Positions 1,291-64,000 of a DNA stretch of 64,000 bases are shown here, piece by piece. Both the position numbers and the translations under genes were made by a program. The first letter of the stretch is position 1, and each line of letters opens with the position of its first letter. This DNA is from Zanthoxylum bungeanum (taxonomy: Eukaryota > Streptophyta > Magnoliopsida > Sapindales > Rutaceae). The stretch is from contig SKCR01033653.1 of assembly GCA_019454045.1 (NCBI GenBank), positions 1 through 64,000 of the forward strand. Reading direction: 5' to 3'. The notes beneath the pieces were generated by a model. The model was not told the DNA's origin. It saw only the letters and a program-made list of their open reading frames with translations, and made no database searches.

Positions 1291-1292
1291 GT

Positions 1293-27960: not shown

Positions 27961-27976
27961 GTCCCAAACTTGATTC

Positions 27977-29107
27977 TCATGCATTGAGTCTAACTCGAAT
28001 TTCATAGAACTTTGCCTTTTCACGGAGTCGATGTCCAACATCGATTCTTATATGTAAAGGATCAGTCTCTTCAACTAAGAGAACATCAAGACTCTTTTCT
28101 TGTATCAAATAAAAGCGTTCAGGAGGTCTTGATACCCTTTGTGACCTACGGAGTGTGTGTGTTGAAGGTCCTTCATCTACTTGAACTTCAGTTTCCTCCG
28201 TTGGTTCGTTGTTTTTAGGTTGGACTTCATCAAGTTCAACCTGTCTATGATTACCACCTTCTGACAAGAATTCTACTTTTAGAAATCTTGCGAAGTAAGC
28301 TACGAACATATTTCGATGCTCGGTATCATAGAACATATATCCCCTCGTTTCCGAAGGATATCCAACAAACCTAAACTTTTTCCCTCGAGGCAAAAGCTTA
28401 TCTTGCTGAGTCACCCTGACATAGGCAGGACAACCCCAAACCTTAATATAACTATGATTTGGTCTCCTACCGGTCCATATCTCATACAGAGTCATAGGAA
28501 CAGCTTTTGAAGGAATCTTATTCAAAAGATGTGCAGCTGTTAAAAGAGAGTAGCCTCATAAGTAATAGGGCAAATATGTGAAACTCAACATCGATCGGAC
28601 CATATCCAATAAAGTCTGATTTCTCCTCTCAGACACTCCATTGTGTTGTGGAGTACCTGGAGGAGTATATTGAGCGAGAATCCCATTCTCCTTCATATAA
28701 TCAATGAACTCACCACTCATATATTCTCCGCCTCGATCAGATCGAAGGCATTTAACATATTGACCAGTTTGTTTTTCTACTTCATTTCGGAACTCTTTGA
28801 ACTTTTCAAAGGTTTCTGATTTATGTTACATCAAATAGACATAACTGTACCGTAACAGAACATCGGTAAAGTTAACGAAGTACGAATAACCACTGTGAGC
28901 AGTCTGACTTAGTGGAGCACATACATCAGAATGTACGAGTTCTAGTAAGTTAGTGGCACGGTGTCCAACACCTGAAAATGGGGCTTTGGTCATCTTACCA
29001 TGAATACACGATTCACAAGTTGGATATGATTCAATGGTGAGATCTGGTATCAAACCATTCCTAACCAATTGGGTAAGGCGTTTAACGCCTATATGACCTA
29101 GCCGCAT
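27977..29107 (-). pseudogene. Copia C integrase
   Basis: The 28826-29107 frame has the end of the HHCC zinc finger (RLGHIGVKRLTQLVRNG and CESCIHGKMTKAPFSG) and the start of the core (LVHSDVCAPL; YFVNFTDVLLRYSYVYLM). A stop lies at about 28826. The middle core with the third catalytic acid is in broken frames (28560-28820). The 27977-28525 frame gives the C-terminal part (LYEIWTGRRPNHSYIKVWGC, KKFRFVGYPSETRGYMFYD) and the acidic linker to RT with RRSQRVSRPPERF. The order is standard Copia. Confidence 0.88.
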
Positions 29108-29182
29108 ATGCCAAAGTTCAGTATTATTAACAACAGGTAAACTACGTTTAATAACTCCAATATTTAAAATATCTTTAGAAGT

Positions 29183-29545
29183 TTACAATGTATAATGACC
29201 ATGTTGATTTGGACAACAAAGGATCTGAATATTACGTTTATCATATAAAAAACAGTTCTTAATATTAATACGATAACCTTTTGTATCCAATACAAAAAGA
29301 GATATAATATTAGCTACAGATTCAGGTACAAAATAACAGTCATATAACAAAAGTGTCCCATTCGGCAAAGGGATCTCGCATACTCTCACTGCAACTGCAT
29401 CCAGAGAGTCTCCACTCCCAAATCGCAACTGCATCTTTCCAGGCTTCAGATTCCTACTTTCCTTCAGCACCTGCAATGAATTGCAAATGTGAACAGGACA
29501 AGCAGAATCTAAAATCCAGCTGGATGTAACGGCTTCACAAGCCAA
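29183..29545 (-). pseudogene. Copia C aspartic protease region
   Basis: A 120-codon frame with WILDSACPVHICNSLQVL near residues 10-27. The active-site Asp-Ser is present, but the expected Gly reads Ala-Cys, so catalysis is doubtful. LRFGSGDSLDAVAVRVCEI and YDCYFVPESVANIISL follow, as in this Copia lineage. It lies between gag and the integrase zinc finger. Confidence 0.8.
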
Positions 29546-34355: not shown

Positions 34356-36335
34356 TGATGAGTGGTATTTATATCACTATTTCCCACTCATTTAACCTTA
34401 TATTTTGTATAGTTTCTTGAGTCTTGTGAATATTTTGATGTGTTTTGTGTTATTTTGTAGATAAATAAAGTTTCAGGACATTCTGGAGGTGATTTGGAGC
34501 AAAACTGTGAAAATTGGCAAAAAAGGGCATTTTGGTAAATTGTCCGCGTCGCGACGCCAAGACCTTCCGCGTCGCGACGCCTAACGTGCACCAGAGCTGC
34601 TAACGTGCGCCGGGTCAACGGGTCAGAATTTGAGAAGTTTGACTTTGCTAAAATGCGCCGTGACACGTGTCACCATCACAACCGATATGCTAACATGCGC
34701 TGTGCCACGTGTCGCAATCCTACGGTGCCGACAATTGATCTCAGCCGCCTTGCCATGTCAGCGCCATGTCATCGCCATGTCAGCGCCACGTCATCGCCAC
34801 GTCAACATAATAATTGAGCTCTTTGCCGCCTTGCCACGTGTCGCCTTATCCTCTTAGCCGCCTCGCAACGTGTCAAGCCCTCAGCGTGCCACGCCAACTG
34901 TTCCAGCGTAGCGACGCCATAGGTCTTGGCGTCGCGACGCTGGAAGCTTACCCGCGCCTATAAATTCACCTTCGAATTTCAGAATTCAGTGTACCTTCCT
35001 CTCTCTTCAATTCTTTCTAAAGAGAGAGTTTCTCTCTCTAGATTCTTTAGTTTTTTTAGTTTTTTTTTATTTTCAACTTTTAGTTTTGTAAATAATTTTA
35101 ATTACGTTTTGTAATAATAGTAATTTAATTTTTACTTTTTACTATTTACAGTTTTTACTATTCACTATTAATAGGTAACTTCCCCCAGCTAGGGTGAAAG
35201 GTAATTCTTTTATTGTTACTATTTAGATTAATCTCCCTTTAAGATAATATATTCACTATTTAAAATACTGACTTAAAAAGGATACCGCTATATTGGTCGG
35301 TTGGTAATTTAATTTTAATCTGGTTTAAACCTGACTAATAAAGGATACCGCCAGATTGGTCGGTTGGTAATTTAATTTTGGTTCCGCCTTTATGGCTGGT
35401 TGGACTTAATTTGACTTAATCAGGATACCGCCAGATTGGTCGGTTGGTAATATTATCACGAGTTTATATATTATTTTATGGGAGATATCTAAATTAGTAG
35501 TAGTAAAAGTAATTCCTTTTACCTTAGCATTTTATTGTTATTTTTACTTTTCAGCATTTTTACTTTATGTCTTTTACTTTTATGTTTTTACTAGCCCTAG
35601 TTATGTGTTAGTTATCTGGGGTTGTGATGACTTTTAATATCACCGGTTTATAAGGGTTTATTTTATAGTTTGGGTAATTTAAAGGTTTACTTATTAAGTC
35701 TTAATCTTAATGCTTCTTGTTGTCTGATCACCAATAAGATTGATCTGGTAAATCTAAAATGAACTAGACATAGGGATTTTAGGTTTCAGCCATAGACTCA
35801 ATAGCCCACGATCTTCTTTGAGGATAGATAACCCTTTAATAGATTTCCTTACAGGATAGGAATATACCTGTCGGGCGGGGTAGCCATAATTGGAACTTAA
35901 ACTTAATGAATCCAGATAATTTGGTTGACATAGACATATGGTTCAATTGAGTTAAACTGGGTATTTGTGTCTGACCATCGACATAGGCTTTTGCATAATT
36001 TAGTGTTCCAGGTTAGTAAACTGATTTATTACACAAACATAAAATAACCACTTCATCTTTTAAAAGATATTAGAAGGATTCACAACCCTAGATCTTTGTG
36101 TCTTTTGTTATTTTCCTTAGTATTTTCTTTTGTCTTTTTATTTATTTATTTATTTTTTAAAACCACTTTCAACCATCAAACAGTCATTCTCTTCTCCATT
36201 TAATTAGATATTTGTAATTAAATAGATTCAATAATTAATAACAACAGTAGGAATTAAGTCCTCGTGGGATCAATATTTTTATACTACTTGAACGATACGT
36301 GCGCTTGCGTTATACGTGTGTGTTTACGCCGGTCA
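34356..36335 (+). repeat. 5' LTR, Athila-like plus copy
   Basis: 1980 bp with TG...CA ends. In order it holds CG palindromes (34546-34580), an imperfect CACGTG/GCCACGTCA array (34660-34880), another palindrome (34929-34940), a TATA-like CTATAAATTC near 34967, a CT/AG-rich zone (35000-35050), three GGATACCGCCAGATTGG units (35280-35440) and a CGTGTGTGTTTACGCC end. Confidence 0.92.
34546..34940 (+). promoter_or_regulatory. CG palindromes and CACGTG boxes in the LTR
   Basis: GCGTCGCGACGC occurs at 34546-34557, 34569-34580 and 34929-34940, with a one-mismatch copy at 34906-34917. CACGTG lies at 34664-34669, 34706-34711 and 34835-34840. A run of GCCAYGTCAKC units (34743-34806) is longer here than in the 3' LTR. 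The TATA-like box near 34967 lies just downstream, so this is the likely upstream promoter region. CACGTG is the known core of plant bZIP/bHLH sites; use in this element is inferred. Confidence 0.55.
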
Positions 36336-36341
36336 AGTTTT

Positions 36342-36359
36342 TGGCGCCGTTGCCGGGGA
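36342..36359 (+). other. Primer binding site, tRNA-Asp type
   Basis: TGGCGCCGTTGCCGGGGA, 6 bases after the 5' LTR. It is complementary to the 3' end of plant tRNA-Asp, the primer common in Athila-type Gypsy elements. Confidence 0.85.
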
Positions 36360-36471
36360 CTTATTTTTCTTGAGTTGTTAATTTTGAAGCTATCCAATTT
36401 ACTTGTATCTAATTTTCTTTATTTTTATATGAAATTTTATTTCTTTCTTCTGTTTTCAGGTGATTGAAAGA

Positions 36472-37762
36472 ATGGAACACTACTGGGAGATTGAGAGATT
36501 ACGAACTTTACAAGAAGATGCACCCCACATCCGGGAGCAACAGACCGGTTTTCTGAGGCCTGTTGTCCAGCCCAACAATTATTACTGGATGCCAGAACCA
36601 AGCAATACTCTATTTGCTCAACAGAACGAGATGGGGAGATGTATGATATGTGATGGTAACCACCCGAGCAATCAATGTATATACCGTTCAGAGTGGCAGA
36701 ATTATTGGAATCAGTCATGGTACGAAGAACCATCACATTTCATATAACCATATTTTCCATCTTATCCACCACCCACCTACAATGATCTTCATCAACAATC
36801 AGAACAATCATAAAAAGATCAGATGATTGACATGATCAAAAATGTGTTCAAGAAACGAGAAGAAAAGATGGATACAATGCTTGAAACATTCCAGAATCAA
36901 CTCGAAAGCATTCAGAGTCAAACAGAATCCATACAGAGAATGACAGATCAGATCAGACAATTAACAGAAAACCAGAACTACATACCTCAAGAACCAGTTC
37001 CAGATGACACTGATGAAGCCTTCGAATACCAATCAGTTCATAATGACACTTCAACAAAGGAGGAGGCTGAGCAATATCAACAACCAGAGGTATCAGTTCA
37101 GGAGCCCGAACCGGCAAAGTCTCGATTTGATTTCTATTATTCAGATTCTGACGAGGATAAGCTGAACTGTTTGTACCAACTGCACCAACAATTGAGGATG
37201 AATTCTGTGTCCTCAAAATGAAGATCTTGGAGATTGTTTTGCAATAATGTTTGAAGAAGATCTACCTGAACCAATCATTTCACTCATATTAGAGGATGAA
37301 GACCTAAAATCTGACATTTCTTTTCATCCAGAGGTTGATAATTTTGAAGCATGTATTTCACAGATGACAGATGAAGAGCTGAATATGGAAATTTTAAAAT
37401 ACATCTGTGAAGAAAAGATGGAGCAAGAAGCAGAGCAAATGGAGGAGCAAATGTCTGACCTTAATAAAGATCCAGAGCATTCAGGAGAAACATCGCTGTT
37501 TTGGGGAGTACAAATCAAAGATATCGCCTAGAAGCTTGACAGAATGGAATTTCCATTCCAAGTCAAACATCATACGAGACCTCCTGATTTTCTTTCTTTC
37601 TTTGCAGGAACCACTGGAACAACAAGGAGTAAAAAGGTGGCACGAGCACTGAATGAGACAAAACTATTTTTGCCACTTTACCGTTGGAAGAGACCTTTCA
37701 AAAGCAACGCTCACTGGATTGTCTTTAATCGGACATCCAAAACGACATTGAAACCTCCTTAA
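36472..37762 (+). pseudogene. Gag-like gene of the Athila-like element, broken copy
   Basis: Same protein as the intact frame at 57036-58289. It starts MEHYWEIERLRTLQEDAPHI and has the zinc knuckle CMICDGNHPSNQC near residues 58-70. A stop follows at about 36746 (after EEPSHFI), where the intact copy reads on. Further pieces are at 36823-37221 (coiled coil with QIRQLTENQNYIPQEP), 37247-37531 (acidic, ending DIA then stop) and 37544-37762 (KSNAHWIVFNRTSKTTLKPP end). At least one deletion, two stops and one frameshift separate it from the intact version. A TTTTCAGG acceptor-like site precedes the start. Confidence 0.8.
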
Positions 37763-37894
37763 CATATGAATTTTAGTCACGTCTGGCTGAAGATGAAAAA
37801 TTTAGCGCTAGCAGGGAGGGAACCTATACAATTTGTTGTAATTTGTTTTTCATATTTTGTGTGAACTTTTTAATTTTGTGTGTTAGTTTTGCAG

Positions 37895-39120
37895 GAAAAA
37901 TAAAAACGGAATTTTTCAGGACAAAGCAAGCCAGTGCAAGCGGGATTGTTACAAAATAAAAATTTGACAAAATCACGAAGATACAAAGTCAATCCAGAAG
38001 AGACGGCCGAGTAAGGAGTCAGCTCTTGGGAGGCGTCCCTATGGATTTATCCGTCGCAAGACATGGTTTTGCCAAAAAAAAAAAAATCTTAGCGTCGCGA
38101 CGCCATGCAAACTTCAGCGTCGCGACACTGGATCGATTGCAGGCCAAAAACAGCAGCCGCCGAGAACAGAACCCATTTCCCTCACAGATCTCACCATTCT
38201 CACTCAACTCACAACCACCACAGTCGAGCCTTCATCCCCACCGTGAACCAAATCATCCAACCAAGACCCATCATCATCTCGACACATCTAGCCCTCATCG
38301 CCCAAACCGCAACCACTCACGACCGAACAACCGCGAGCCACCCTTGCCGAAATCGAGATCTACCACTGAAACCAGAAACCAAGATTCACCCAATCCGAGA
38401 GCCATCGCCGAGTATTAGTCGCCACCGTCGAGACCGAAACCATCTTCATCCTTGCTGACACCTTCATCACCGTAACTAAGCCATTCCTTCACCGAGTCAC
38501 AGTCGAGACACTCACCACCGAGAACCAACAGAGCCGAGACCCACCAGCCACCATCAAACCGAGATCCACATTGCTGAGACCGAATCAACCCACAACCGCA
38601 TCAACACCACCGTGAGTCGCCCTTGCCGAACCACATCTGCCATAAGCCACTGACCACCGCTGATTCAACCCACTGCCGAAACCCAACCCACAACCAAAAC
38701 CGAGAAGCAGCAAATCAACCCAAGTCCAAGCCGATCCGTATCCTCCATTGCCAAATTTGGAATTGACGGTAAAATTGATAAAAAAAAAATTTGATTTGGT
38801 AAAATTGATTTGGTGGATTGATAATTCTGTTTTGTGATTTGGTGTTGTGAGGAGTAGATTGAGATAGTGAAGTGTTGTTGATTGATTATTTGATTCGTAG
38901 TCGTGGGGGCGAAGAGTTGAATTGAGGTGTTTGTGGCATTTAATAGATTTAGGTTGTGTTGGATAATCAGAAATTCAGGGGAGACTCTGCCAGATTTTTC
39001 TGAAAAATACCGAAGTTGGGCATTGTGTATTGATAATTTTTAGGGTGAATTTTGGGGAAATTTTGAGTTTTTAGAGGTGATTCTGCCAAAATTTTTACTA
39101 AAAAAAAAATGGTCAAATAG
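37895..39120 (+). other. Cargo segment of the plus copy (unidentified)
   Basis: Lies between two blocks shared with the minus copies: upstream TGTGTTAGTTTTGCAGG ending 37895, downstream CGATCGTGGTAAGA at 39121-39134. In the minus copies the same slot holds the LOG-like gene; here the sequence is unrelated. The first 850 bases are C/A-rich with many CCGAGAC-like pieces and two GCGTCGCGAC motifs (38092-38103 perfect, 38117-38128 one mismatch). Overlapping open frames (38026-38418, 38105-38458) look like composition artefacts. The last 350 bases are AT-rich with two similar ATTCTGCCA/CTCTGCCAGATTTTT pieces. I cannot name a source gene. Confidence 0.6.
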
Positions 39121-39754
39121 CGATCGTGGTAAGAATCGTAATTTGGACATAAATCTTAATCGGTAATTTTTCCTGTGAAATTTCAGTTAACCAGGTATTA
39201 TCGTCTAAACTCTTCCACTTTTTAAGACATTGGGGACAATGTCTCATTTAGGTTTGGGGGAGGGAATTAGTTGATCAGTACCTTGTTTTTAGTTTATTTT
39301 AGTTGATCAATACCTTGTTTTTAGTTTGTGTGTTATTTTAGTTTGTGTGTTATTTTTATTTTTAGTCCAAAATTTTTCGAAAAATACAAAAAAATTGAAA
39401 AATTTTCAAAAATTACAAAAATATTTTGTGTTTTTTTTTTTTTTTTTATGTTTTTGTGTTTTGACTAAAAAGGTGAAATTGGTGAGAGGTAGCTGAGTAA
39501 GGAGTTCCCACTCCTGATACGTTTATTTCGGAACAAGTTAATTTTTATTTATTTCATTTTAAATTATTTAATTTGTAAATTCTCCTTAAGACTGACTAAA
39601 ATGGATCTTCATATGCTCAGTTGGCAGGTATTATCAATATGCATAGTAACATACAGACATGAGCTAAAATTGAAAAGTTTGTAATATTCAGTGCTCTAGT
39701 TTAATTGGAGGAAGCATCTTAAAAAATGATGGAGTAAAAAAAAAAAAAAAAAAC

Positions 39755-39983
39755 GTCCGAGATCCGAGTTATTAAGTCTGTAAGAGTGAATTAACACCTA
39801 GTGCCCTAAAACCAACTGATTTGGGAGTCACTGGCCCAAAGCTCGCTACATGGATCAAAGATGCTGTAAAAATATATATATCTGAAGTCTGAGTAATTAA
39901 GTTCGTAGGGGTGTCTTAATACCTGGTGCCCTAAAGCCAACTGGTTTGGGAGCCACCGACCTAAAGCTCGTTACATAGATGGA
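39755..39983 (+). repeat. Duplicated ~105-bp noncoding module
   Basis: Two similar units (39755-39859 and 39880-39983). Each contains GAGTTATTAAGT or GAGTAATTAAGT, then GTGCCCTAAA, CCAACTG, TTTGGGAG, CTAAAGCTCG-type and TACAT blocks, separated by an A/T-rich spacer. Both units are kept in each minus copy (55100-55327 and 60981-61207). No coding frame spans them. Confidence 0.75.
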
Positions 39984-40530
39984 AGGTATTGTATATAAAT
40001 AAAAAATAGAGAAAAATCAGAGAAATCAGAAAAATTATTCCATTGCTACAAAAAGGTGTGAAATCTGATAGAACTTTAGGACAAAAATATTACTCTCTTA
40101 TCAACTGCATTTATGACTGTTGTGGGCAAAAATAAGTTGATTAATATTTTATTAGATGTGTATATGGAGAATGGTAAAAATAATCGGAGAATTTACTTAT
40201 TCGGTAATTTAGAAAGAAACAAAACAACTAGTAACTTAGAGTAGAAGTTTCACCTGATTAGTCACTAACTTCTTTATTCTCTTTTCGCTTGTCTTTTTGC
40301 TTTTGTGTGTATTAGTTTTATTACCTTTTTACTTTTGTAAAAATGTTTGTGGGTATCATTGCTGTAAACCCTCACGAGACTACAACTCATCCACTAGGGA
40401 CACCTAGGGGTTAAAGGCTTGTTGCATATGCTAAATGCAACCGTGATCCCTACGAAAGTGGCTTAGTTAAATTTTAAAGATGTTTATGTTATTTTTATTT
40501 TATGTTTTGCTCGAGGACTAGCAAAATGTT

Positions 40531-40543
40531 AGGTTTGGGGGTG
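40531..40543 (+). other. Polypurine tract of the plus copy
   Basis: AGGTTTGGGGGTG directly before the 3' LTR. A second similar tract, GGTTTGGGGGAGGG, occurs near 39251 after ATTGGGGACAATGTC, in the conserved 3' region. About 90-120 bases upstream of the LTR is a conserved small hairpin (40422-40440). Confidence 0.75.
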
Positions 40544-42480
40544 TGATGAGTGGTATTATATCACTATTTCCCACTCATTTAGCCTTATATTTTGTATAGT
40601 TTCTTGAGTCTTGTGAATATTTTGATGTGTTTTGTGTTATTTTGTAGATAAATAAAGTTTCAGGACATTCTGGAGGTGATTTGGAGCAAAACTGTGAAAT
40701 TGGCAAAAAAGGGCATTTTGGTAAATTGTCCGCGTCGCGACGCCAAAACCTTCCGCGTCGCGACGCCTAACGTGCACCAGAGCTGCTAACGTGCGCCGGG
40801 TCAACAGGTCAGAATTTGAGAAGTTTGACTTTGCTAAAATACGCCGTGACACGTGTCACCATCATAACCGATATGCTAACATGCGTCGTGCCACGTGTCG
40901 CAATCCTACGGTGCCGAAAATTGATCTCAGCCGCATTGCCACGTCAGCGCCACGTCAGCATAATAATTGAGCTCTTAGCCGCCTTGCCACGTGTCGCCTT
41001 ATCCTCTTAGCCGCCTCGCAACGTGTCAAGCCCTCAGCGTGCCACGCCAACTGTTCCAACTTAGCGACGCCATAGGTCTTGGCGTCGCGACGCTGGAAGC
41101 TTACCCGCGTCTATAAATTCAGCTTCGAATTTCAGAATTCAGTGTACCTTCCTCTCTCTTCAATTCTTTCTAAAGAGAGAGTTTCTCTCTCTAGATTCTT
41201 TAGTTTTTTTTTTTTTTCAACTTTTAGTTTTGTAAATAATTTTAATTATGTTTTGTAATAATAGTAATTTAATTTTTACTTTTTACTATTTACAGTTTTT
41301 ACTATTCACTATGAATAGGTAACTTCCCCCAGCTAGGGTGAAAGGTAATTCTTTTATTGTTACTATTTAGATTAATCTCCCTTTAAAACAATATATTCAC
41401 TATTTAAAATACTGACTTAAAAAGGATACCGCTATATTGGCCGGTTGGTAATTTAATTTTAATCTGGTTTAAACCTGACTAATAAAGGATACCGCCAGAT
41501 TGGTCGGTTGGTAATTTAATTTTGGTTACGCCTTTATGGCTGGTTGGACTTAATTTGACTTAATCAGGATACCGCCAGATTGGTCGGTTGGTAATATTAT
41601 CACGAGTTTATATATTTTTTATGGGAGATATCTAAATTAGTAGTAGTAAAAGTAATTCCTTTTACCTTAGCATTTTATTGTTATTTTTACTTTTCAGCAT
41701 TTTTACTTTATGTCTTTTACTTTTATGTTTTTACTAGCCCTAGTTATGTGTTAGTTATCTGGGGTTGTGATGACTTTTAATATCACCGGTTTATAAGGGG
41801 TTATTTTATAGTTTGGGTAATTTAAAGGTTTACTTATTAAGTCTTAATCTTAATGCTTCTTGTTGTCTGATCACCAATAAGATTGATCTGGTAAATCTAA
41901 AATGAACTAGACATAGGGATTTTAGGTTTCAGCCTTAGACTCAATAGTCCACGATCTTCCTTGAGGATAGATAACCCTTTAATAGATTTCCTTACAGGAT
42001 AGGAATATACTTGTCGGGCGGGGGTAGCCATAATTGGAACTTAAACTTAATGAATCCAGATAATTTGGTTGACATAGACATATGGTTCAATTGAGTTAAA
42101 CTGGGTATTTGTGTCTGACCATCGACATAGGCTTTTGCATAATTTAGTGTTCCAGGTTAGTAAACTGATTTATTACACAAACATAAAATAACCACTTCAT
42201 CTTTTAAAAGATATTAGAAGGATTCACAACCCTAGATCTTTGTGTCTTTTGTTATTTTCCTTAGTATTTTCTTTTGTCTTTTTATTTATTTATTTATTTT
42301 TTAAAACCACTTTCAACCAATCAAACAATCATTCTCTTCTCCATTTAATTAGATATTTGTAATTAAATAGATTCAATAATTAATAACAACAGTAGGAATT
42401 AAGTCCTCGTGGGATCGATATTTTTATACTACTTGAATGATACGTGCGCTTGCGTTATACGTGTGTGTTTACGCCGGTCA
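40544..42480 (+). repeat. 3' LTR, Athila-like plus copy
   Basis: 1937 bp, nearly identical to the 5' LTR but with small indels, a shorter GCCACGTCA array and CG palindromes at 40732-40743, 40755-40766 and 41082-41093. It is followed by the CCCTC duplication. Confidence 0.92.
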
Positions 42481-51239: not shown

Positions 51240-52535
51240 TGTTGGGGTTTTAAGCAATAAGTATGGGTAGCACATCGGAACACGAGAAAATCAAATTTTC
51301 CGATTTCTTTTATTTTTCTTGGGTAATTAAAATAAACTAATTTATTTTAATCACTCAATACTCAACGAAATAAATTTTTACTCAAAAATTCACAACTTTT
51401 CTTTATTGCCGTGAGACCCATCAACTATGTATTTTGATCATTTTAGTCCTAATTTGTCAAATACACAATTAGGTGATTCCAAACCACCACCAAAATGATT
51501 TAAACATGTCATACACATCAAAACACAATTGCAACCGAAAATCTCATATTTCCTACAAATTGCTGTGAAGCCCACAAAGTTTCAATTTTAATCATTTTGG
51601 TCCAATCTTGTTAAAACAAGCTTAAACGATTCCCAAATAATTCCAAAATGATTTGTATATCTTATATACTTCAAAATATACCATATATATGAAAAGCCTC
51701 AATTTTGGTTTAGGTTAGAAACCTAAATTTTTCAATTAATCAAATTAACCAAAAATAACCAAAATTAATTCAATCTAAGACTTTAATCTAATCTCTACAA
51801 CACCAAACAAGTCTCACCACCATGAAATAACTCAAGAACAATTCTAGATCATCATTGAATAGCCTAACAACTCTAGAATGGCAACCAAGTCATCTAATGA
51901 CTAAAAGAAAGCTTAATAACACTTTATAAGCATTCTTTCTTAACATGCATACTAACATCTTTCATCTAAGCTTCCAACATCAATATTACACACTAAAAGT
52001 AGTAGACAAAAAATCAAACATCATATGTTACAACTTGAAACCCTAGAAACATCTTTTTAGTTGAAAATGAATTGAAAAAACTTGTTTTGATTCAAGTTTT
52101 CTTTAAATCTTATTCCTTTTACTTTATTTTTCTCTCAACTTTTCTTTGTAATATTTTTGGAGACTTAGCTTATGTTATGAAGCAAATGAAAAAAGATAAC
52201 TTCTATACCTATGGTTGGCTGAATTCCATGGGCAAAATTGGTAATTTGAATTTTCCAATTTTTTAATCAAGAATTAAAAGAATTCAAATCAAAATTGGCT
52301 ACCAATTCTATAATCATATATACATGTGCACCAATCAAAATTAGCCATTCAAGACTTAATAATGATAATGATAAATATGTATTAAATAATTCTAATTTTT
52401 TTAACAATTAAATAATTAGACTATTACTTAATATAAATATCTAAATACACGTATCATATTTACATTAAATATTCCATAATACATATATTTAGACACATGT
52501 CAAAAATATTATTTGACAAAATATTAATGTGTATT
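51240..52535 (-). repeat. LTR related to Copia C, truncated
   Basis: Begins TGTTGGGGTTTTAAGCAA and shares with the C LTR (31181 onward) the GAAAATCAAATTTTCCGATTTC block. It also shares ATATATGAAAAGCC, then GTTTAGGTTAGAAACCTAA-like text, and CATATTTACATTAAATAT near the end. It stops within AATGTGTATTTGA at 52535, where the Athila-like array enters. It corresponds to about the first 1.3 kb of the 2.37-kb C LTR. The remainder may lie beyond the array, right of the window. Confidence 0.7.
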
Positions 52536-54531
52536 TGACCGACGTAAACACACACGTATAACGCAAGCGCACGTATCGTTCAAGTAGTATAAAAATATCG
52601 ATCCCACGAGGACTTAATTCCTACTGTTGTTATTAATTATTGAATCTATTTAATTACAAATATCTAATTAAAGAGAGAATATAATTGATTGCTTGATTGA
52701 TTTGGTTGATTAAAGATTTGCTAAATAAATAAAAAGATAAAAGAAAATACTAAGGAAAATAAAAGACACAAAAATCTAAGGTTGTGATTTCTTTTATTAT
52801 CATTTAAAAGATGAAGTGGTTATCTTAAAGTTGGTAATATATTGATTTATTAACCTGGAACACTAAATTATGTAAAAGCCTCTTCCGATGGTCAACTACA
52901 AATACCCAGTATAACCCAATTGAACCATATTCTTATGTCAACCACATTACCTGGATTCATTAAATGTAAGTTCCAATTATGGCTACCCCCGCCCAGACAG
53001 GTATATTCATATCATGTAAGGAAATCTATTAAAGGGTTATCTATCCTCAAGGAAGATCGTGGTCTATTGAGTCTAAGGTCTTAAACTTAAAATCCCTATG
53101 TCTAGTTCATTTTAAGTTTACCTAATCAATTTTATTAATGGCCAGTTAATAAAAAGGCTTTAGGGTTAAGACTCAATAAATAAATCTTTAAATTACCCAA
53201 ACTATAATCTAACCCTTATAAACCAGTGATAGTAAAAGTTATCACAACCCCTAAATAACTAACACATAATTAAGCTAGTAAAAACTTAAAAGTAAAAGAC
53301 ATAAAGTAAAAGCTGAAAAATAAAATAAAATTACTAAGGTAAAAGGAATTAACTTCTACTAAATACTATTTAGATTTCTCCCATAATATAATATAAGCTT
53401 TGCAAAACATTTCCAACCTGCCATATAGGCGGTAACCCGATTAAGTCAATTTAAAAACAACCAGCCATAAAGGCGGAATTAAATTAACCAGCCATAAAGG
53501 CGGAATGAAAACAACCAGCCATAAAGGCGGAATTAAAATAACCAACCGACCAATCTGGCGGTATCCTCATTAAGTCCAATTAAAAACATTGAATATATTA
53601 TAATTATGGGAGAATAATCTAAGTAGTAATAGTAAAAGAATTACCTTTCACCATAGTAAAAGAAAGTTACCTCATATAAATAGTAAAAACTGTAAAAAGT
53701 AAATAGTAAATAGTAAAAACTGTAAAAGAAAGTAAAAAGTAAAAATTAAATTACTATTATTACAAAACGTAATTAAAATTATTTACAAAACAAAAAAAAA
53801 CTAAAAACTAAAGAGTTTTAGAGAGAGAAGCTCTCTCTTTAGAAGGAATTGAAGAGAGAGGATGAGACACTGAATTCTGAAATCTCGAGCTCAATTTATA
53901 GGCGTCGATAGGGTCTGGGCGTCGCGACGCGCAAGGGTTCCGCGTCGCGCCAGCTACAGTGACACGTGTCACTTGCTGATTTGTCGGCTCAGATCTTATC
54001 CGATGACGTGGCACTGTTCATGACGTCATTGCTTACGTCACACTGAGGTGAGATTGTCGGCAGCATCAGATCTTGACACGTGGCATGGGCGCATTTTAGC
54101 ACGGCCGTTGAGATGTTGACACGTGTCCTGGCGCACGTTAGCATAGATGATGATTGTCGGCACCGTTTTGATGATGACACATGGCAGCGCAAGTTAGCAA
54201 GTCTTCAGTGATGGTGACACGTGGCACGGCGCACGTTAGCAAAGTCAACTTTTCAGATTCTGACCTGTTGACCCCGGCGCACTTTAGCAAAACCGGCGCA
54301 TGTTGAGCGTCGCGACTCCAAAGCTTTTAGCGGCGCGACGCGCAGAAGACATAAATATCCCAGTTGGCGCATTTTTGTCCGGTTTTGTCCCAAATTGCCT
54401 CCAGTGCTGTCCAAACTTTATTTATCTGCAAAATAACAACAAAACACATCAAAACGTTCATAAATCTCGAGAAATAATACAAAACATTAGGTCAAATGGG
54501 TAAGAAATAGTGGTATAAATACCACTCATCA
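52536..54531 (-). repeat. Outer (3') LTR of the tandem array
   Basis: From TGACCGACGTAAAC to ATACCACTCATCA, 1996 bp. It is the reverse complement of the LTR family at 34356 and 40544, but more distant from those than from the middle LTR. It keeps GCCATAAAGGCGGAAT units (53464-53530), a GCGTCGCGACGC palindrome (53919-53930) and a CACGTG array. A second palindrome at 53941 lost 3 bases (ACG) compared with 59819. Confidence 0.93.
53919..54223 (-). promoter_or_regulatory. CACGTG array and CG palindromes in the outer LTR
   Basis: CACGTG is at 53963-53968, 54077-54082, 54120-54125 and 54218-54223; a decayed CACATG is at 54178-54183. Several sit in GACACGTGGC, and most are followed within about 30 bases by GCGCACGTTAGCA or similar, so the array is a set of loose repeats of about 40-110 bases. 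GCGTCGCGACGC is at 53919-53930. The TATA-like box lies just downstream in transcription direction (CAATTTATAGGCG near 53892). GACACGTGGC contains the known ABA-response core; activity is inferred. Confidence 0.5.
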
Positions 54532-55099
54532 CACCCCCAAACCTAACATTTTGCTAGTCCTCGAGCAAAACAGAAAATAACATAACATGAAAATAAAATT
54601 TAACTAAGCCACTTTCGTAGGGATCACGGTTGCATTTAGCATATGCAACAAGCCTTTAAACCCCTAGGTGTCCCTAGTGGACGAGTGTAGTCTCGTGAGG
54701 GTTTACGGTAATGATACCCACAAACATTTTACAAAAGTAAAAAGTTAGTAAAACTAATGCACACAAAAGCAAAAAGACAAGCGAAAATAGAATAAAGAAG
54801 TTAGTGACTAATCAGGTGAAAATTCTACTCCAAGTTACTAGTTGTTTTGTTTCTTTCTAAATTACCGAATAAGTAAATTCTCCGATTATTTTTACCATTC
54901 TCCATATACACAGCCAACAGAATATTAATCAACTCATTTTTGCCCACAACAGTCATAAGTGCAGTTGATAAGAGAGTAATATTTTTGTCCTAAAGTTCTA
55001 TCAGATTTCACACCTTTTTGTAGCAATGGAATAATTTTTTTGATTTTTCTGATTTTTTCTTTGATTTTTTCTCTATTTTTTATTTTTATACAATATCAT

Positions 55100-55327: not shown

Positions 55328-55911
55328 ATTTTTTTTTTACTCCATCACTATTTAGAGATGCTTCCTCCAATTAAACTATAGCACGGAATATTACAAACTT
55401 TTCAATTTTAGCTCATGACTGTATGTTTCCATGTATGTTGATAATACCTGCCAACTGAGCATATGAAGATTCATTTTAGTCAGATTTATGGAGAATTCAC
55501 AAATTAAATAATTTAAAATGAAATAAACAAAAATTAACTTGTTTCGAAATAAATGGTTTGAGATACGTATCAGGAGTGAAAACTCCTTACTCGGCTATCT
55601 CTTTCCAATTTCACCTTTTTTAGTCAAAATAAAAACACAAAAATGCAAAATATTTTTGTAATTTTTGAAAATTTTTCAATTTTTTTTTATTTTTCGAAAC
55701 ATTTTGGACTAAAAATAAAAACAACATACAAACTAAAAACAAGGTACTGATCAACTAAATCCCTCCCCCAAACCTAAATGAGACATTGTCCCCAATGTCT
55801 TAAACAGTAAAAGGAGAGTTAGAAGGTTGTACTTGGTTAGCTGAAATCTACAGGAAATTAAAGGTTAAGATCCAGATTAATTCGACGCCTCTTACCACGA
55901 TCGTCCTCAGA

Positions 55912-56511
55912 CTAATTTATCTTTGATAGGATAGGGTCAACTTGTGGTTCATAGGCTATGAGTTGGTCTATTAGATCCGGAGCAAGTCTGGCAGTGAAGA
56001 GGAGTTCTTTCATAGGTTTTGATACGAACCCATTTCTCCGAGCATCATCAAGAAACACACAAAGAAAATCATAAAATCCATCAATGTTGAGCAAACCAAT
56101 TAGTTTCTGGTGTATGTTCAGGTTCGCCCAAGATAGAACTATAAAAATTTCCTCCAATGTACCCAAGCCACCTGGCAAAGCAATAAAAGCATCAGCAAGG
56201 TTAATCATTTCTACCAAACGTTCAGACATACCTGATACGATCAGTTCCTCTCTGTTTGATGATCCAATAAGATTTGCCTCTGCCAAGGGTTTTGGGACGA
56301 TTCCCAAAACGTGACTGCCTCCCTCCTGTACGGCTTTTGAAACGATCCCCATAAGTCCGAGATTGCCTCCGCCATATATTAAATGCATATTCCTTGCAGC
56401 TAAGACTCGACCCAATTCCTGTGCCGCTTCTATGTATTGTGGTTTAGTACCAACAGTACTACCGCAAAACACACAGATGTTTTCAACTCGTCTTCTTGAA
56501 GTGGCTTCCAT
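55912..56511 (-). CDS. LOG-family protein (cytokinin riboside 5'-monophosphate phosphoribohydrolase-like), carried by the retroelement
   Basis: A complete 199-codon frame. LOG enzymes remove ribose-5'-phosphate from cytokinin nucleotides to give active cytokinin in the cytosol, and most are about 200-230 residues. Seen here: ICVFCGSTVG (residues 12-21), YGGGNLGLMG (46-55, nucleotide-binding loop), HVLGIVPK (67-74), MSERLVEM (95-102), and ADAFIALPGGLGTLEE (106-121). The last contains the family signature PGGxGTxxE with Glu121; Arg98 is the other conserved catalytic position. The usual RK pair reads Arg98-Leu99. No intron is present, unlike typical plant LOG genes. The ATG follows an A-rich leader; the stop is 8 bases before the conserved CGATCGTGGTAAGA block (reverse strand). 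Activity is uncertain. Confidence 0.9.
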   Translation of the reverse strand: MEATSRRRVENICVFCGSTVGTKPQYIEAAQELGRVLAARNMHLIYGGGNLGLMGIVSKAVQEGGSHVLGIVPKPLAEANLIGSSNREELIVSGMSERLVEMINLADAFIALPGGLGTLEEIFIVLSWANLNIHQKLIGLLNIDGFYDFLCVFLDDARRNGFVSKPMKELLFTARLAPDLIDQLIAYEPQVDPILSKIN

Positions 56512-56572
56512 TTTTTTTTTATGTATTTCTTTTTCAAATCAAGATGCCTTCAAAAGTGCAATGACGGGTTGA

Positions 56573-56579
56573 ATTTATA
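56573..56579 (-). promoter_or_regulatory. TATA-like box upstream of the LOG-like gene
   Basis: TATAAAT on the minus strand, about 62 bases before the ATG at 56511. It is preceded by CCCTTTTTCAGG, which looks like a 3' splice acceptor, so either reading is possible. The same site lies at 62456-62462 in the second unit. The boundary with the Gag-like part is near 56902, where ATTTTGTAGG forms another acceptor-like site. Confidence 0.35.
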
Positions 56580-57035
56580 GTACCTGAAAAAGGGTGAGTA
56601 ATAATAGCACTAGTATCTTCCAAATGACGATTGTTAGCTAAACAACAAAAGAGATCGTGAAAGGTCAAAAAGTCTGGATCATGTCTACGAAAATAAAGAT
56701 AATTACAACAGAAAAGCGAATCAAAGCAATAATTAAGGCAACAGAATTGTGTACGCAATACGCCACTCGCTTAGTATAAATTCATTAGGATGCGTCTCAA
56801 GATTTCATTCATTACTAAGTCTTTGCTAATGAATTGTTTCTCTTTTTGTAGTTGCAAAACACCATTCCTTCTGTCTTAAAATGCTTCGTTTGTGCCTTTC
56901 CCTACAAAATAACACACACAATTAAAAAGTTCACACAAAACATGAAAAAAAATAAATTACAACAAATTGCATGGGTTGCCTCCCTGCTAGCGCTAAATTT
57001 TTCGTCTTCAGTCAGACGTGACTGAAATTTATCTG

Positions 57036-58289
57036 TTAAGGAGGTTTCAATGTCGTTTTGGATGTCCGATTAAAGACAATCCCGTGAGCGTTGCTTTTGA
57101 AGGGTCTCTTCCAATGGTAAAGTGGCAAAAAGAATTTTGTTCTATTCAGTGCTCGTGCCACCTTTTTAACTTTTTTTGCTCCAGTAGTACCTGAAAAGAA
57201 AGAAAGAAAATCAGGAGGTCTCATATGGTGTTTGACTTGGAATGGAGGTTCCATTCTGTCAAACTTCTGGGTGATGTGTTTGATTTGCACTCCCCAAAAC
57301 AGCGATGTTTTTCCTGAATGCTCTGGATCTTTATTTTGGTCTGACAGTTGCTCCTCCATTTGCTCTGCTTTTTGCTCCACCTTTTCTTCGCAGATGTATT
57401 TGAAAATTTCCATATTCAGCTCTTCATCTGTCATCTGTGAAATACATGCATCAAAATTGTCAACCTGAAGATGAAAAGAAATGTCAGATTTTAGGTCTTC
57501 ATCCTCTGATCTGGATGAAATAATTGGCTCAGGTAGATATTCTTCAAACATTTGTGCAAAGCATTCTCCAAGATCTTCATTTTGAGGCTTGAAAGTTTGA
57601 TCCTCCGTTGTTGGTGCAGTTGGTATAAATGGATCAGCTTCCTCATCGTCAGAGTCAGAATAATAAAAATCAAATCGAGACTTTGCCGGTTCGGGTTCCT
57701 GAACTGATACCTCTAGTTGTTGATACTGCTCAGCCTCCTCCTCTGTTGAAATGTCATTGTGAAATGATTGGTACTCGAAGGCTTCATCAGTGTCATCTGG
57801 AACTGGTTCTTGAGGTATATAGTTTTGGTTTTCTGTTAATTGTCTGATCTGATCTGTCATTCTCTGTATGGATTCTGTGTTACTCTGAACTTGTGCATCA
57901 AATTGAGCTTCTTGTTCCTTGAACATGTGAATCAATTGATCTTCCTTGGATGATTCTGGTTCTTGATAAGGATCGAAGGAAGATGGTGGATAAAATGAAA
58001 AATGTGGTTCTGTGAAATGTGATGGCTCGTCATACCATGAAGGATCTTGATAGTTCTGCCACCCTGGATGGTAGTTGTATTCGCAATAATCGCTCGGGTG
58101 GTCACCATTACATATGTCACATATCCACATTGAATTCTGTTGAGCAAATGTAGTATTGTTTGATTCTGGCATCCAGTAATAATCATTGGGCTCGACAACA
58201 GGCCTCAGAAAACCGGACTGTTGCTCCCAGATGTGGGGTGTATCTTCTTGTAAAGCACGTAATCTTTCAATCTCCCAGTAATGTTCCAT
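57036..58289 (-). CDS. Gag-like acidic protein with zinc knuckle, capsid-less
   Basis: A 417-codon intact frame starting MEHYWEIERLRALQEDTPHI. A single CX2CX3HX4C knuckle (CDICNGDHPSDYC) lies near residues 58-70, then GWQNYQDPSWYDEPSHF. This order fits the C-terminal part of Athila-type Gag. A helical/coiled part follows (about 120-170, with QIRQLTENQNYIPQEP), a long acidic region (YYSDSDDEEADPF; DEELNMEIFKYICEE) and a basic end (KVKKVARALNRTKFFLPLYH, then KSNAHGIVFNRTSKTTLKPP). The capsid domain, protease and polymerase are absent. The frame is also open upstream through the primer site into the LTR, but without ATG. A role in RNA binding or packaging is inferred. Confidence 0.75.
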   Translation of the reverse strand: MEHYWEIERLRALQEDTPHIWEQQSGFLRPVVEPNDYYWMPESNNTTFAQQNSMWICDICNGDHPSDYCEYNYHPGWQNYQDPSWYDEPSHFTEPHFSFYPPSSFDPYQEPESSKEDQLIHMFKEQEAQFDAQVQSNTESIQRMTDQIRQLTENQNYIPQEPVPDDTDEAFEYQSFHNDISTEEEAEQYQQLEVSVQEPEPAKSRFDFYYSDSDDEEADPFIPTAPTTEDQTFKPQNEDLGECFAQMFEEYLPEPIISSRSEDEDLKSDISFHLQVDNFDACISQMTDEELNMEIFKYICEEKVEQKAEQMEEQLSDQNKDPEHSGKTSLFWGVQIKHITQKFDRMEPPFQVKHHMRPPDFLSFFSGTTGAKKVKKVARALNRTKFFLPLYHWKRPFKSNAHGIVFNRTSKTTLKPP

Positions 58290-58400: not shown

Positions 58401-58418
58401 TCCCCGGCAACGGCGCCA
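58401..58418 (-). other. Primer binding site, tRNA-Asp type
   Basis: TCCCCGGCAACGGCGCCA on the plus strand, identical in complement to the site at 36342-36359; 6 bases inside the middle LTR. Confidence 0.85.
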
Positions 58419-58424
58419 AAAACT

Positions 58425-60411
58425 TGACCGGCGTAAACACACACGTATAACGCAAGCGCACGTATCGTTCAAGTAGTATAAAAATATCGATCCCACGAGG
58501 ACTTAATTCCTACTGTTGTTATTAATTATTGAATCTATTTAATTACAAATATCTAATTAAAGGGAGAATATAATTGATTGCTTGATTGATTTGGTTGATT
58601 AAAGATTTGATAAATAAATAAAAAGATAAAAGAAAATACTAAGGAAAATAAAAGACACAAAAATCTAAGGTTGTGATTTCTTTTAATTATCATTAAAAGA
58701 TGAAGTGGTTATCTTAAAGTTGGTAATATATTGATTTATTAACCTGGAACACTAAATTATGTAAAAGCCTCTTCCGATGGTCAACTACAAATACCCAGTA
58801 TAACCCAATTGAACCATATTCCTATGTCAACCACATTACCTGGATTCATTAATGTAAGTTCCAATTATGGCTACCCCCGCCCGACAGGTATATTCCTATC
58901 CTGTAAGGAAATCTATTAAAGGGTTATCTATCCTCAAGGAAGATCGTGGGCTATTGAGTCTAAGGTCTTAAACTTAAAATCCCTATGTCTAGTTCATTTT
59001 AAGTTTACCTAATCAATTTTATTAATGGCTAGTTAATAAAAAGGCTTTAGGGTTAAGACTCAATAAATAAATCTTTAAATTACCCAAACTATAATCTAAC
59101 CCTTATAAACCATGATAGTAAAAGTTATCACAACCCCTAAAACTAACACATAATTAAGCTAGTAAAAACTTAAAAGTAAAAGACATAAAGTAAAGCTGAA
59201 AAATAAAATAAAATTACTAAGGTAAAAGGAATTAACTTCTACTAAATACTATTTAGATTTCTCCCATAATATAATATAAGCTTTGCAAAACATTTCCAAC
59301 CTGCCATATAGGCGGTAACCTGATTAAGTCAATTTAAAACAACCAGCCATAAAGGCGGAATTAAATTAACCAGCCATAAAGGCGGAATGAAAACAACCAG
59401 CCATAAAGGCGGAATTAAATTAACCAACCGACCAATCTGGCGGTATCCTCATTAAGTCCAATTAAAAACATTGAATATATTATATTTGGGAGAATAATCT
59501 AAGTAGTAATAGTAAAAGAATTACCTTTCACCATAGTAAAAGAAGTTACCTCATATAAATAGTAAAAACTGTAAAAAGTAAATAGTAAATAGTAAAAACT
59601 GTAAAAGAAAGTAAAAAGTAAAAATTAAATTACTATTATTACAAAACGTAATTAAAATTATTTACAAAACTAAAAAAACTAAAACTAAAGAGTTTTAGAG
59701 AGAGAAACTCTCTCTTTAGAAGGAATTGAAGAGAGAGGATGGGACACTGAATTCTGAAATCTCGAGCTCAATTTATAGGCGTCGATAGGGTCTGGGCGTC
59801 GCGACGCGCAAGGGTTCCGCGTCGCGACGCCAGCTACAGTGACACGTGTCACTTGCTGATTTGTCGGCTCAGATCTTATCCGATGACGTGGCACTGTTCA
59901 TGACGTCATTGCTTACGTCACACTGAGGTGAGATTGTCGGCAGCATCAGATCTTGACACGTGGCATGGGCGCATTTTAGCACGGCCGTTGAGATGTTGAC
60001 ACGTGTCCTGGCGCACGTTAGCATAGATGATGATTGTCGGCACCGTTTTGATGATGACACGTGGCAGCGCAAGTTAGCAAGTCTTCTGTGATGGTGACAC
60101 GTGGCACGGCGCACGTTAGCAAAGTCAACTTTTCAGATTCTGACCTGTTGACCCCGGCGCACTTTAGCAAAACCGGCGCATGTTGAGCGTCGCGACTCCA
60201 AAGCTTTTAGCGGCGCGACGCGCAGAAGACATAAATATCCCAGTTGGCGCATTTTTGTCCGGTTTTGTCCCAAATTGCCTCCAGTGCTGTCCAAACTTTA
60301 TTTATCTGCAAAATAACAACAAAACACATCAAAACGTTCATAAATCTCGAGAAATAATACAAAACATTAGGTCAAATGGGTAAGAAATAGTGGTATAAAT
60401 ACCACTCATCA
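58425..60411 (-). repeat. Middle LTR shared by the two tandem units
   Basis: TGACCGGCGTAAAC to ATACCACTCATCA, 1987 bp. It is nearly identical to the outer LTR at 52536-54531. It is the 5' LTR of the left unit and the 3' LTR of the right unit, since a complete purine tract follows at 60412. It keeps both CG palindromes (59796-59807, 59819-59830) and five CACGTG boxes (59843, 59957, 60000, 60058, 60098). Confidence 0.92.
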
Positions 60412-61207: not shown

Positions 61208-61795
61208 CATTTTTTTTTTTACTCCATCACTATTTAGAGATGCTTCCTCCAATTAAACTATAGTACGGAATATTACAAACTTTTCAATTTTAGCTCATGA
61301 CTGTATGTTTCCATGTATGTTGATAATACCTGCCAACTGAGCATATGAAGATTCATTTTAGTCAGATTTATGGAGAATTCACAAATTAAATAATTTAAAA
61401 TGAAATAAACAAAAATTAACTTGTTTCGAAATAAATGGTTTGAGATACGTATCAGGAGTGAAAACTCCTTACTCGGCTATCTCTTTCCAATTTCACCTTT
61501 TTTAGTCAAAAATAAAAACACAAAAATGCAAAATATTTTTGTAATTTTTGAAAATTTTTCAATTTTTTTTTTATTTTTCGAAACATTTTGGACTAAAAAT
61601 AAAAACAACATACAAACTAAAAACAAGGTACTGATCAACTAAATCCCTCCCCCAAACCTAAATGAGACATTGTCCCCAATGTCTTAAACAGTAAAAGGAG
61701 AGTTAGAAGGTTGTACTTGGTTAGCTGAAATCTACAGGAAATTAAAGGTTAAGATCCAGATTAATTCGACGCCTCTTACCACGATCGTCCTCAGA

Positions 61796-62394
61796 CTAAT
61801 TTATCTTTGATAGGATAGGGTCAACTTGTGGTTCATAGGCTATGAGTTGGTCTATTAGATCCGGAGCAAGTCTGGCAGTGAAGAGGAGTTCTTTCATAGG
61901 TTTTGATACGAACCCATTTCTCCGAGCATCATCAAGAAAACACAAAGAAAATCATAAAATCCATCAATGTTGAGCAAACCAATTAGTTTCTGGTGTATGT
62001 TCAGGTTCGCCCAAGATAGAACTATAAAAATTTCCTCCAATGTACCCAAGCCACCTGGCAAAGCAATAAAAGCATCAGCAAGGTTAATCATTTCTACCAA
62101 ACGTTCAGACATACCTGATACGATCAGTTCCTCTCTGTTTGATGATCCAATAAGATTTGCCTCTGCCAAGGGTTTTGGGACGATTCCCAAAACGTGACTG
62201 CCTCCCTCCTGTACGGCTTTTGAAACGATCCCCATAAGTCCGAGATTGCCTCCGCCATATATTAAATGCATATTCCTTGCAGCTAAGACTCGACCCAATT
62301 CCTGTGCCGCTTCTATGTATTGTGGTTTAGTACCAACAGTACTACCGCAAAACACACAGATGTTTTCAACTCGTCTTCTTGAAGTGGCTTCCAT
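61796..62394 (-). pseudogene. LOG-family gene, frameshifted second copy
   Basis: Identical to the left copy through residue 154 (to FLCVFL). Then one base is missing near 61937, where the left copy reads GAAACACAC and this one GAAAACAC. The frame ends early after 166 codons with an altered tail. All motifs of the core (YGGGNLGLMG, Arg98, PGGLGTLEE) are kept; the lost part is the C-terminal helices. The original stop remains at 61796-61798. The upstream leader, TATA-like box and borders are as in the left unit. Confidence 0.9.
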
Positions 62395-62918: not shown

Positions 62919-64000
62919 TTAAGGAGGTTTCAATGTCGTTTTGGATGTCCGATTAAAGACAATCCCATGAGGGTTGCTTTTGAAGGGTCTCTTCCAATGG
63001 TAAAGTGGCAAAAAGAATTTTGTTCTATTCAGTGCTCGTGCCACCTTTTTAACTTTTTTTGCTCCAGTAGTACCTGAAAAGAAAGAAAGAAAATCAGGAG
63101 GTCTCATATGGTGTTTGACTTGGAATGGAGGTTCCATTCTGTCAAACTTCTGGGTGATGTGTTTGATTTGCACTCCCCAAAACAGCGATGTTTTTCCTGA
63201 ATGCTCTGGATCTTTATTTTGGTCTGACAGTTGCTCCTCCATTTGCTCTGCTTTTTGCTCCACCTTTTCTTCGCAGATGTATTTGAAAATTTCCATATTC
63301 AGCTCTTCATCTGTCATCTGTGAATACATGCATCAAAATTGTCAACCTGAAGATGAAAAGAAATGTCAGATTTTAGGTCTTCATCCTCTGATCTGGATGA
63401 AATAATTGGCTCAGGTAGATATTCTTCAAACATTTGTGCAAAGCATTCTCCAAGATCTTCATTTTGAGGCTTGAAAGTTTGATCCTCCGTTGTTGGTGCA
63501 GTTGGTATAAATGGATCAGCTTCCTCATCGTCAGAGTCAGAATAATAAAAATCAAATCGAGACTTTGCCGGTTCGGGTTCCTGAACTGATACCTCTAGTT
63601 GTTGATACTGCTCAGCCTCCTCCTCTGTTGAAATGTCATTGTGAAATGATTGGTACTCGAAGGCTTCATCAGTGTCATCTGGAACTGGTTCTTGAGGTAT
63701 ATAGTTTTGGTTTTCTGTTAATTGTCTGATCTGATCTGTCATTCTCTGTATGGATTCTGTGTTACTCTCTCTGAACTGTGCATCAAATTGAGCTTCTTGT
63801 TCCTTGAACATGTGAATCAATTGATCTTCCTTGGATGATTCTGGTTCTTGATAAGGATCGAAGGAAGATGGTGGATAAAATGAAAAATGTGGTTCTGTGA
63901 AATGTGATGGCTCGTCATACCATGAAGGATCTTGATAGTTCTGCCACCCTGGATGGTAGTTGTATTCGCAATAATCGCTCGGGTGGTCACCATTACATAT
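62919..64000 (-). pseudogene. Gag-like gene, second unit, frameshifted and cut by window edge
   Basis: Same protein as at 57036-58289, in two frames: 63314 upward to the edge, and 62919-63329. The break at about 63322 is a 1-bp deletion (TGTGAATACATG where the left unit has TGTGAAATACATG). Another difference near 63767 (CTCTCTCTGAACTG against CTCTGAACTTG) is in frame and changes a few residues. The zinc knuckle would lie near the right edge, at about 63970. Confidence 0.8.

Follow-up and report, generated by a model that had tools for sequence, protein, structure and literature searches.

A LOG-family gene under purifying selection in an abundant lineage of LTR retroelements of Zanthoxylum bungeanum

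Results

A compound insertion with two damaged LOG genes

The window, the whole stretch of DNA analysed here, comprises 64,000 nucleotides of Zanthoxylum bungeanum (contig SKCR01033653.1, positions 1 to 64,000). Its LOG-family genes lie among the following features, the last of which is on the contig beyond the window:

34356..42480, plus strand: related LTR element, TSD CCCTC, no LOG match
52536..54531, minus strand: 3′ LTR, TSD AATAC at 52531-52535
54532..54541, minus strand: polypurine-type tract TTTGGGGGTG, adjoining the 3′ LTR
55858..55911, minus strand: remainder of the unit 1 LOG C-terminal tail, untranslated, beyond the TAG at codon 200
55912..56511, minus strand: unit 1 LOG-family ORF, 199 aa plus stop; the frame of relatives continues to 55858
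56584..56594, minus strand: splice-acceptor-like pyrimidine tract plus CAG, just upstream of LOG
57036..58289, minus strand: Gag-like ORF, 417 aa from MEHYW
58401..58422, minus strand: primer binding site, presumably the complement of tRNA-Asp
58425..60411, minus strand: central LTR, common to both units
61742..62394, minus strand: unit 2 LOG, frame broken by a one-base deletion
62919..64000, minus strand: unit 2 Gag-like region, frame broken, extending past the window
contig 64310-66306, minus strand: 5′ LTR, TSD AATAC outside

Positions 52536-66306 of the contig constitute one LTR retroelement insertion, in which three LTRs enclose two internal units and a single TSD, AATAC, is found on both outer sides; the locus had earlier been viewed simply as two units. 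The LTRs diverge by 1.0-1.3% and the compared internal parts by 0.34%, and the doubling thus looks younger than the insertion. According to the preliminary description, the LOG frame is flanked on one side by the Gag-like gene and on the other by the 3′ region of an element that has LTRs and a primer site. These data bear out the arrangement, the 3′ region being noncoding, and the LOG-bearing element also possesses a polypurine-type tract. The second unit that it reported does exist, but the LOG frame there is not intact, extending for 166 aa before the one-base deletion. The window element contains neither pol nor the zinc-finger gene described below.

Other parts of the window were inspected by eye. 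In the related element without LOG, an apparent remnant of the LOG tail lies at about 39121-39165, and the place of LOG is taken by an apparently unrelated sequence (37880-39120, plus strand). Broken polyprotein ORFs at 26604-29545 (minus strand) and 289-2176 (plus strand) appear Ty1/copia-like, and a Pfam scan of one of the two returned no match. The 3′ noncoding region of the LOG-bearing element includes a tandem motif of ∼110 nt (55310-55085, minus strand) with a predicted hairpin, in which one pair switches from A-U to G-C among 45 distinct copies. An Rfam scan of the window gave nothing at the gathering score, the one match near LOG (E 0.91) being at chance level.

The 199-codon frame (minus strand, 56511-55912) is a member of the LOG family, as had been proposed. 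It matches PF03641 with an E value of 1.4e-32 (113 bits, cut-off 27) and TIGR00730 with 160.9 bits (cut-off 96.35), and its best solved relative is the plant protein AtLOG3 (2a33; E 6.7e-56 over residues 4-197). Against the NCBI equivalog for cytokinin riboside 5′-monophosphate phosphoribohydrolase, NF058542, the score of 109.5 bits is below the cut-off of 300. The gene is intronless, in sense orientation and part of an LTR retroelement, and the interval originally assigned to it (55904-56901) does enclose LOG but also covers ∼390 bp of untranslated leader. The PGGxGTxxE signature and the catalytic Arg and Glu (R99 and E122 in CgLOG) are present, while the pocket positions H97, K100 and E125 are occupied by S, L and I, respectively. 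Both window copies are defective. In unit 1 a premature TAG occupies codon 200 of 217, where relatives have Trp, and in unit 2 the frame is shifted. In relatives the tail consists of a basic cluster followed by LDLNL, and as a result of the stop at codon 200 this region is untranslated in unit 1 and the LxLxL motif is absent from the window copy.

A splice-acceptor-like site precedes the gene. The pyrimidine tract and CAG were found before LOG in 55 of 56 copies, with A at −3 in all 56; ten loci treated as duplicates had been omitted from this comparison, although L059 and L067 need not have been. In one copy, L053, precisely a GT..AG segment is missing before LOG, corresponding to window positions 56815-56584, and the resulting junction has one occurrence in the genome with up to one mismatch allowed. 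This deletion was rejected as proof of splicing, since a 3-base microhomology accounts for it equally well.

Abundance of the gene and its pol-bearing relatives

A 45-base pattern from the 3′ end of LOG, searched with up to 3 mismatches through 3.96 Gb of an assembly that may hold both haplotypes, has 20,246 genomic matches (10,185 + 10,061), compared with none for the control. The preliminary description had called for a search for further copies; such matches number ∼20,000, and in other places examined LOG again lies beside the same element parts. Two protein queries of the genome were each evaluated over their best 150 places, of which three were noticed to be common to both lists; stops inside the match occurred in none of the best 150 for one query and in 4 of the best 150 for AtLOG3. 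Among viral contigs no relative was confirmed by two single-protein queries with a reach limited to close relatives.

Seven other genomic places were taken at 10 kb (L010-L016). L010 and L013 contain RT-RNase H, integrase, a zinc-finger gene and LOG; L012 and L015 contain Gag-like, protease-like, zinc-finger and LOG parts, but lack RT and retain only the end of integrase; L011 and L014 consist of Gag-like and LOG parts, and L016 is rearranged around LOG. In the pol-bearing relatives the Pfam matches to RT, RNase H and integrase are above the cut-offs, and those to Gag and protease below. RT-RNase H precedes integrase in L010 and L013, the order of Ty3/gypsy elements, and the lineage is probably Athila, as suggested by the literature and the primer site. 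In 2011 Steinbauerova reportedly described two Athila-like elements with similarity to LOGL4. The L010 element has its Gag-like region split into several frames (L017), and over ∼100 aa the window Gag-like ORF is weakly related to its counterparts in the pol-type form. In a LOG tree the pol-type (13) and pol-less (17) forms, labelled from 190 upstream bases, are intermixed, which suggests recombination.

The gene that precedes LOG in L010, L012, L013 and L015 is represented by the following ORF:

L010 6277-5696, minus strand: zinc-finger ORF, 193 aa, before LOG

This ORF matches both Viral_NABP and Carla_C4 above the gathering scores, with 27.5 bits for PF01623 (gathering score 20.9) and 28.8 bits for PF05515 (23), and 20 of 22 relatives match each of these families at E values up to 0.01. 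The cysteines of a CX2CX4CX3C motif (Cys 85, 88, 93 and 97) are conserved. There are 344 database homologues, including proteins of Xanthoceras, Populus, Orobanche and Acer, and all of the 120 matches listed contain PF01623. A predicted model of the protein was too poor for comparison (mean pLDDT 55.7). The database entries for LOG and zinc-finger proteins share two longest-contig values, 8723 and 4511, a hint that the two genes are linked elsewhere too, although short values also coincide by chance. Carlavirus p12 is reported to activate transcription in the nucleus and to suppress silencing (PMC7588395), and also to induce hyperplasia (PMC12172455).

A coupled change in the pocket and a conserved tail

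To the 150 database matches nearest two queries were added two LOG-type proteins of this genome, giving 152 proteins of 205-230 aa; the evidence that such proteins lie in elements comes from this genome and from published examples in Citrus and Populus. Of the 152 proteins, 142 retain R99, 149 E122 and 151 W129, and the positions M96, R99, T119, E121, E122 and W129 are largely kept in the clade. By contrast, K100 and E125 are both lost in 143 proteins and both kept in nine, with none retaining one alone, and H97 is also often replaced. An EAR-like LxLxL motif lies within the last nine residues of 129 of the 152 proteins; of the nine that keep K100 and E125, which branch early in the trees, eight have no LxLxL, the exception being P0052. 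The predicted structure of a relative, P0002 (85% identical), adopts a LOG fold (mean pLDDT 85; best PDB match 2a33, E 4.7e-21), in which the low confidence of the tail indicates that it is probably flexible.

The mechanism put forward in the preliminary description is that the protein converts cytokinin riboside monophosphates by the usual LOG reaction, raising free cytokinin wherever the element is expressed. The predicted LOG fold and the largely kept M96, R99, T119, E121, E122 and W129 positions are consistent with such an activity, but the residues replaced in most of the clade, H97, K100 and E125, are located at the adenine/prenyl site of CgLOG (PMC4979012), and K100 and E125 have been lost together. 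In CgLOG, alanine substitution of AMP-binding or catalytic residues, among which Lys100 is listed, nearly abolished activity (PMC4979012), and loss of K100 may therefore entail little or different catalysis. With R99 and E122 kept and K100 and E125 replaced, release of active cytokinin by the element protein is uncertain, and we regard this mechanism as possible but doubtful.

It is also conceivable, although we consider it unlikely, that the protein is a non-enzymatic nuclear regulator, a nucleotide sensor or scaffold with a LOG fold whose basic and LxLxL tail recruits a corepressor, catalysis being secondary or lost. The frequency of the terminal LxLxL, the probable flexibility of the modelled tail and the altered pocket residues would fit such a function. 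The conservation of the catalytic pair R99/E122, which would be needless in a pure scaffold, does not.

Purifying selection on LOG

As the choice of copies by LOG score is biased, 28 copies were sampled through a noncoding probe, the two in the window being left out; rather than a random draw, they are those whose probe region is closest to that of the window. LOG is full length in 26, deleted in one and absent from one, and its ORF is intact in 13 of the 28. Shared variants were nonsynonymous to synonymous (N:S) in the ratio 10:43, with one additional shared stop, compared with 36:33 for singletons (Fisher p 1.7e-4), and the bias is seen both in intact (7:32) and in broken (3:28) copies. When stops are counted as N the in-frame ratio becomes 11:43, and the two shifted frames that served as control gave 43:11 and 51:3. 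The neutral range for the shared ratio is 2-3. The old variants are thus mostly synonymous, demonstrating that LOG has been under purifying selection.

Copies picked by LOG score, with the bias that this entails, display a similar pattern. In 30 such copies the core pN/pS is 0.053, after exclusion of five duplicate loci and of two rows with gaps. Between L010 and L013 the values are 0.04 for LOG, 0.12 for PR-RT-RH, 0.19 for INT and 0.60 for the zinc-finger gene, while LOG of the window copy versus L010 gives 0.15 and the Gag-like ORF 0.57 in three pairs, all from copies first picked by LOG score. At 0.35-0.60, based on few changes, the zinc-finger gene appears less constrained than LOG.

An alternative account, in which LOG is a functionless passenger that the element acquired by chance and amplified along with itself, draws on the 13 of the 28 probe-chosen copies that are broken by indels or stops, on the two more in which LOG is missing or partly lost, on the related window element that has no LOG and on the damage to the window copies. 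It is disfavoured by the evidence for selection, the shared variants being strongly synonymous. Furthermore, the tail is kept in 29 of the 30 copies although it lay outside the query that found them, and many plants have related LOGs at 50-88% identity, a large number of which share this tail. We therefore view this account as very improbable.

As a separate observation, the 480 bases 3′ of LOG (within window positions 55858-54532, minus strand) have a divergence of 0.049, against 0.12 at synonymous sites of LOG in 30 copies, and the LTRs of the 10-kb loci diverge more than these bases; recombination or RNA structure is perhaps the cause.

Separation from host LOG genes

A C-terminal AtLOG3 query identified 29 places at 54-90% identity, followed by element-like places at 40-47% (150 scored), while a nearly full-length AtLOG3 query reached no host genes within its best 150 places, which were element-like. 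In three host LOG genes a short-range reading revealed coding sequence split by introns, in accordance with the expectation that plant LOG genes have them, with HQRK and the pocket Glu present in all three. UFBoot values, from a tree of 27 sequences, were 100 for the pocket-changed clade, 96 for the whole element-type clade and 96 for the host clade; as only five plant host LOGs (AtLOG3, AtLOG8 and the three of this genome) and one bacterial root were included, a long-branch effect is possible. As for the earlier suggestion of a capture, a recent one in this element from a host LOG is not upheld. The element LOGs form one clade apart from the five host proteins (UFBoot 96), the same gene is present in pol-bearing relatives and at the ∼20,000 genomic places, and a fresh capture was rejected on the basis of the tree and the intron-split host exons. 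LOG is therefore best regarded as a long-standing accessory gene of the element. The notion that a host LOG locus or an assembly artefact merely lies between LTRs, which the two adjoining, nearly identical units (0.34% internal divergence) might evoke, is refuted by the copies beside the same element parts elsewhere and is vanishingly improbable, given also the one TSD around the compound and the separate, intron-bearing nature of the three host LOGs.

Discussion

We propose, as a reasonably probable reading, that the window LOG belongs, as an accessory gene, to an old and highly abundant Ty3/gypsy lineage, probably Athila, and is expressed from spliced RNA as an altered nucleotide hydrolase with a nuclear tail that, together with the zinc-finger protein, reprograms the host. 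Pol-bearing members encode RT, RNase H, integrase, weaker protease and Gag-like parts, the carlavirus-type zinc-finger protein and LOG, whereas the window element would be a pol-less derivative that retained LOG, its copies being decayed examples. The 217-aa protein, presumably made from spliced RNA, may hydrolyse a nucleoside 5′-monophosphate, its preference as to the N6 group having changed, and the basic and LxLxL tail might bring about nuclear entry and contact with a TOPLESS-type corepressor. LOG and the zinc-finger protein could then shift host cells to division or weaker silencing, such that new insertions are inherited. Cytokinin activity, a nuclear role and a benefit to the element are inferences. 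Counting against the proposal, LxLxL is a short motif, and selection could act on binding rather than catalysis; the same holds for the possible effect of the lost K100 on catalysis, the apparently lower constraint on the zinc-finger gene, the lack of pol and of that gene in the window element, the NF058542 score below the cut-off and the broken state of half the sampled copies.

More tentatively, a two-gene cassette for host reprogramming may have persisted in the lineage across many eudicots. One gene would encode a virus-type zinc-finger protein, either an activator of transcription or a suppressor of silencing, and the other a derivative of LOG that underwent a single re-tuning of its pocket and acquired a nuclear tail able to bind a corepressor. 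By acting on silencing or on proliferation of host cells, the two would allow new copies to enter the germ line. If these proposals are correct, genes for silencing control and for hormone metabolism are borne by a mobile element itself, at about 20,000 positions of a single genome. The plant proteins now annotated as LOG or LOGL10 would then probably include some element proteins, which affects gene-family counts in annotation.

The existence of such elements was already known, a LOG/YgdH domain having been published in Ty3/gypsy elements of Citrus and Populus (Vassilieff 2022, PMC9289625). The selection, the altered pocket, the tail and the virus-like neighbour gene look new. A literature search, with most subscription papers outside its reach, brought up no account of a zinc-finger gene of this kind in retroelements, nor of the pocket or the tail, and the accessible portions of PMC7264820 and PMC6317226 make no mention of LOG in elements. 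Extra ORFs of at least 250 codons were counted by Neumann 2019 (PMC6317226), a threshold at which LOG and the zinc-finger gene would both be missed.

Comparison with known systems

The Citrus and Populus elements likewise contain a LOG-family domain as an extra part; the accessible account of them reports only the presence of the domain (PMC9289625), whereas the data presented here add copy number, selection, the tail, the pocket change, the zinc-finger neighbour and the pol-less form. With AtLOG3 and AtLOG8 the element protein has in common the fold, PGGxGTxxE and the catalytic Arg and Glu, but it differs from them in being encoded by an intronless gene, in belonging to a separate clade, in the changes at K100/E125 and often H97, and in the basic and LxLxL tail. 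The cysteine-rich proteins of carlaviruses and allexiviruses, exemplified by CVB p12, contain PF01623 and PF05515, as does the ORF beside LOG in the pol-bearing relative. Unlike CVB p12, the putative element protein, which is absent from the window element, is retrotransposon-encoded and, at about 182 aa, has an extended C-terminal part that is conserved. Another instance of an enzyme of host type that became fixed in a retrotransposon and spread as the element multiplied is the AlkB RNA demethylase of orchid Ty3/gypsy elements (PMC9289625). The enzyme is a different one, and its activity was measured in that system (PMC9289625).
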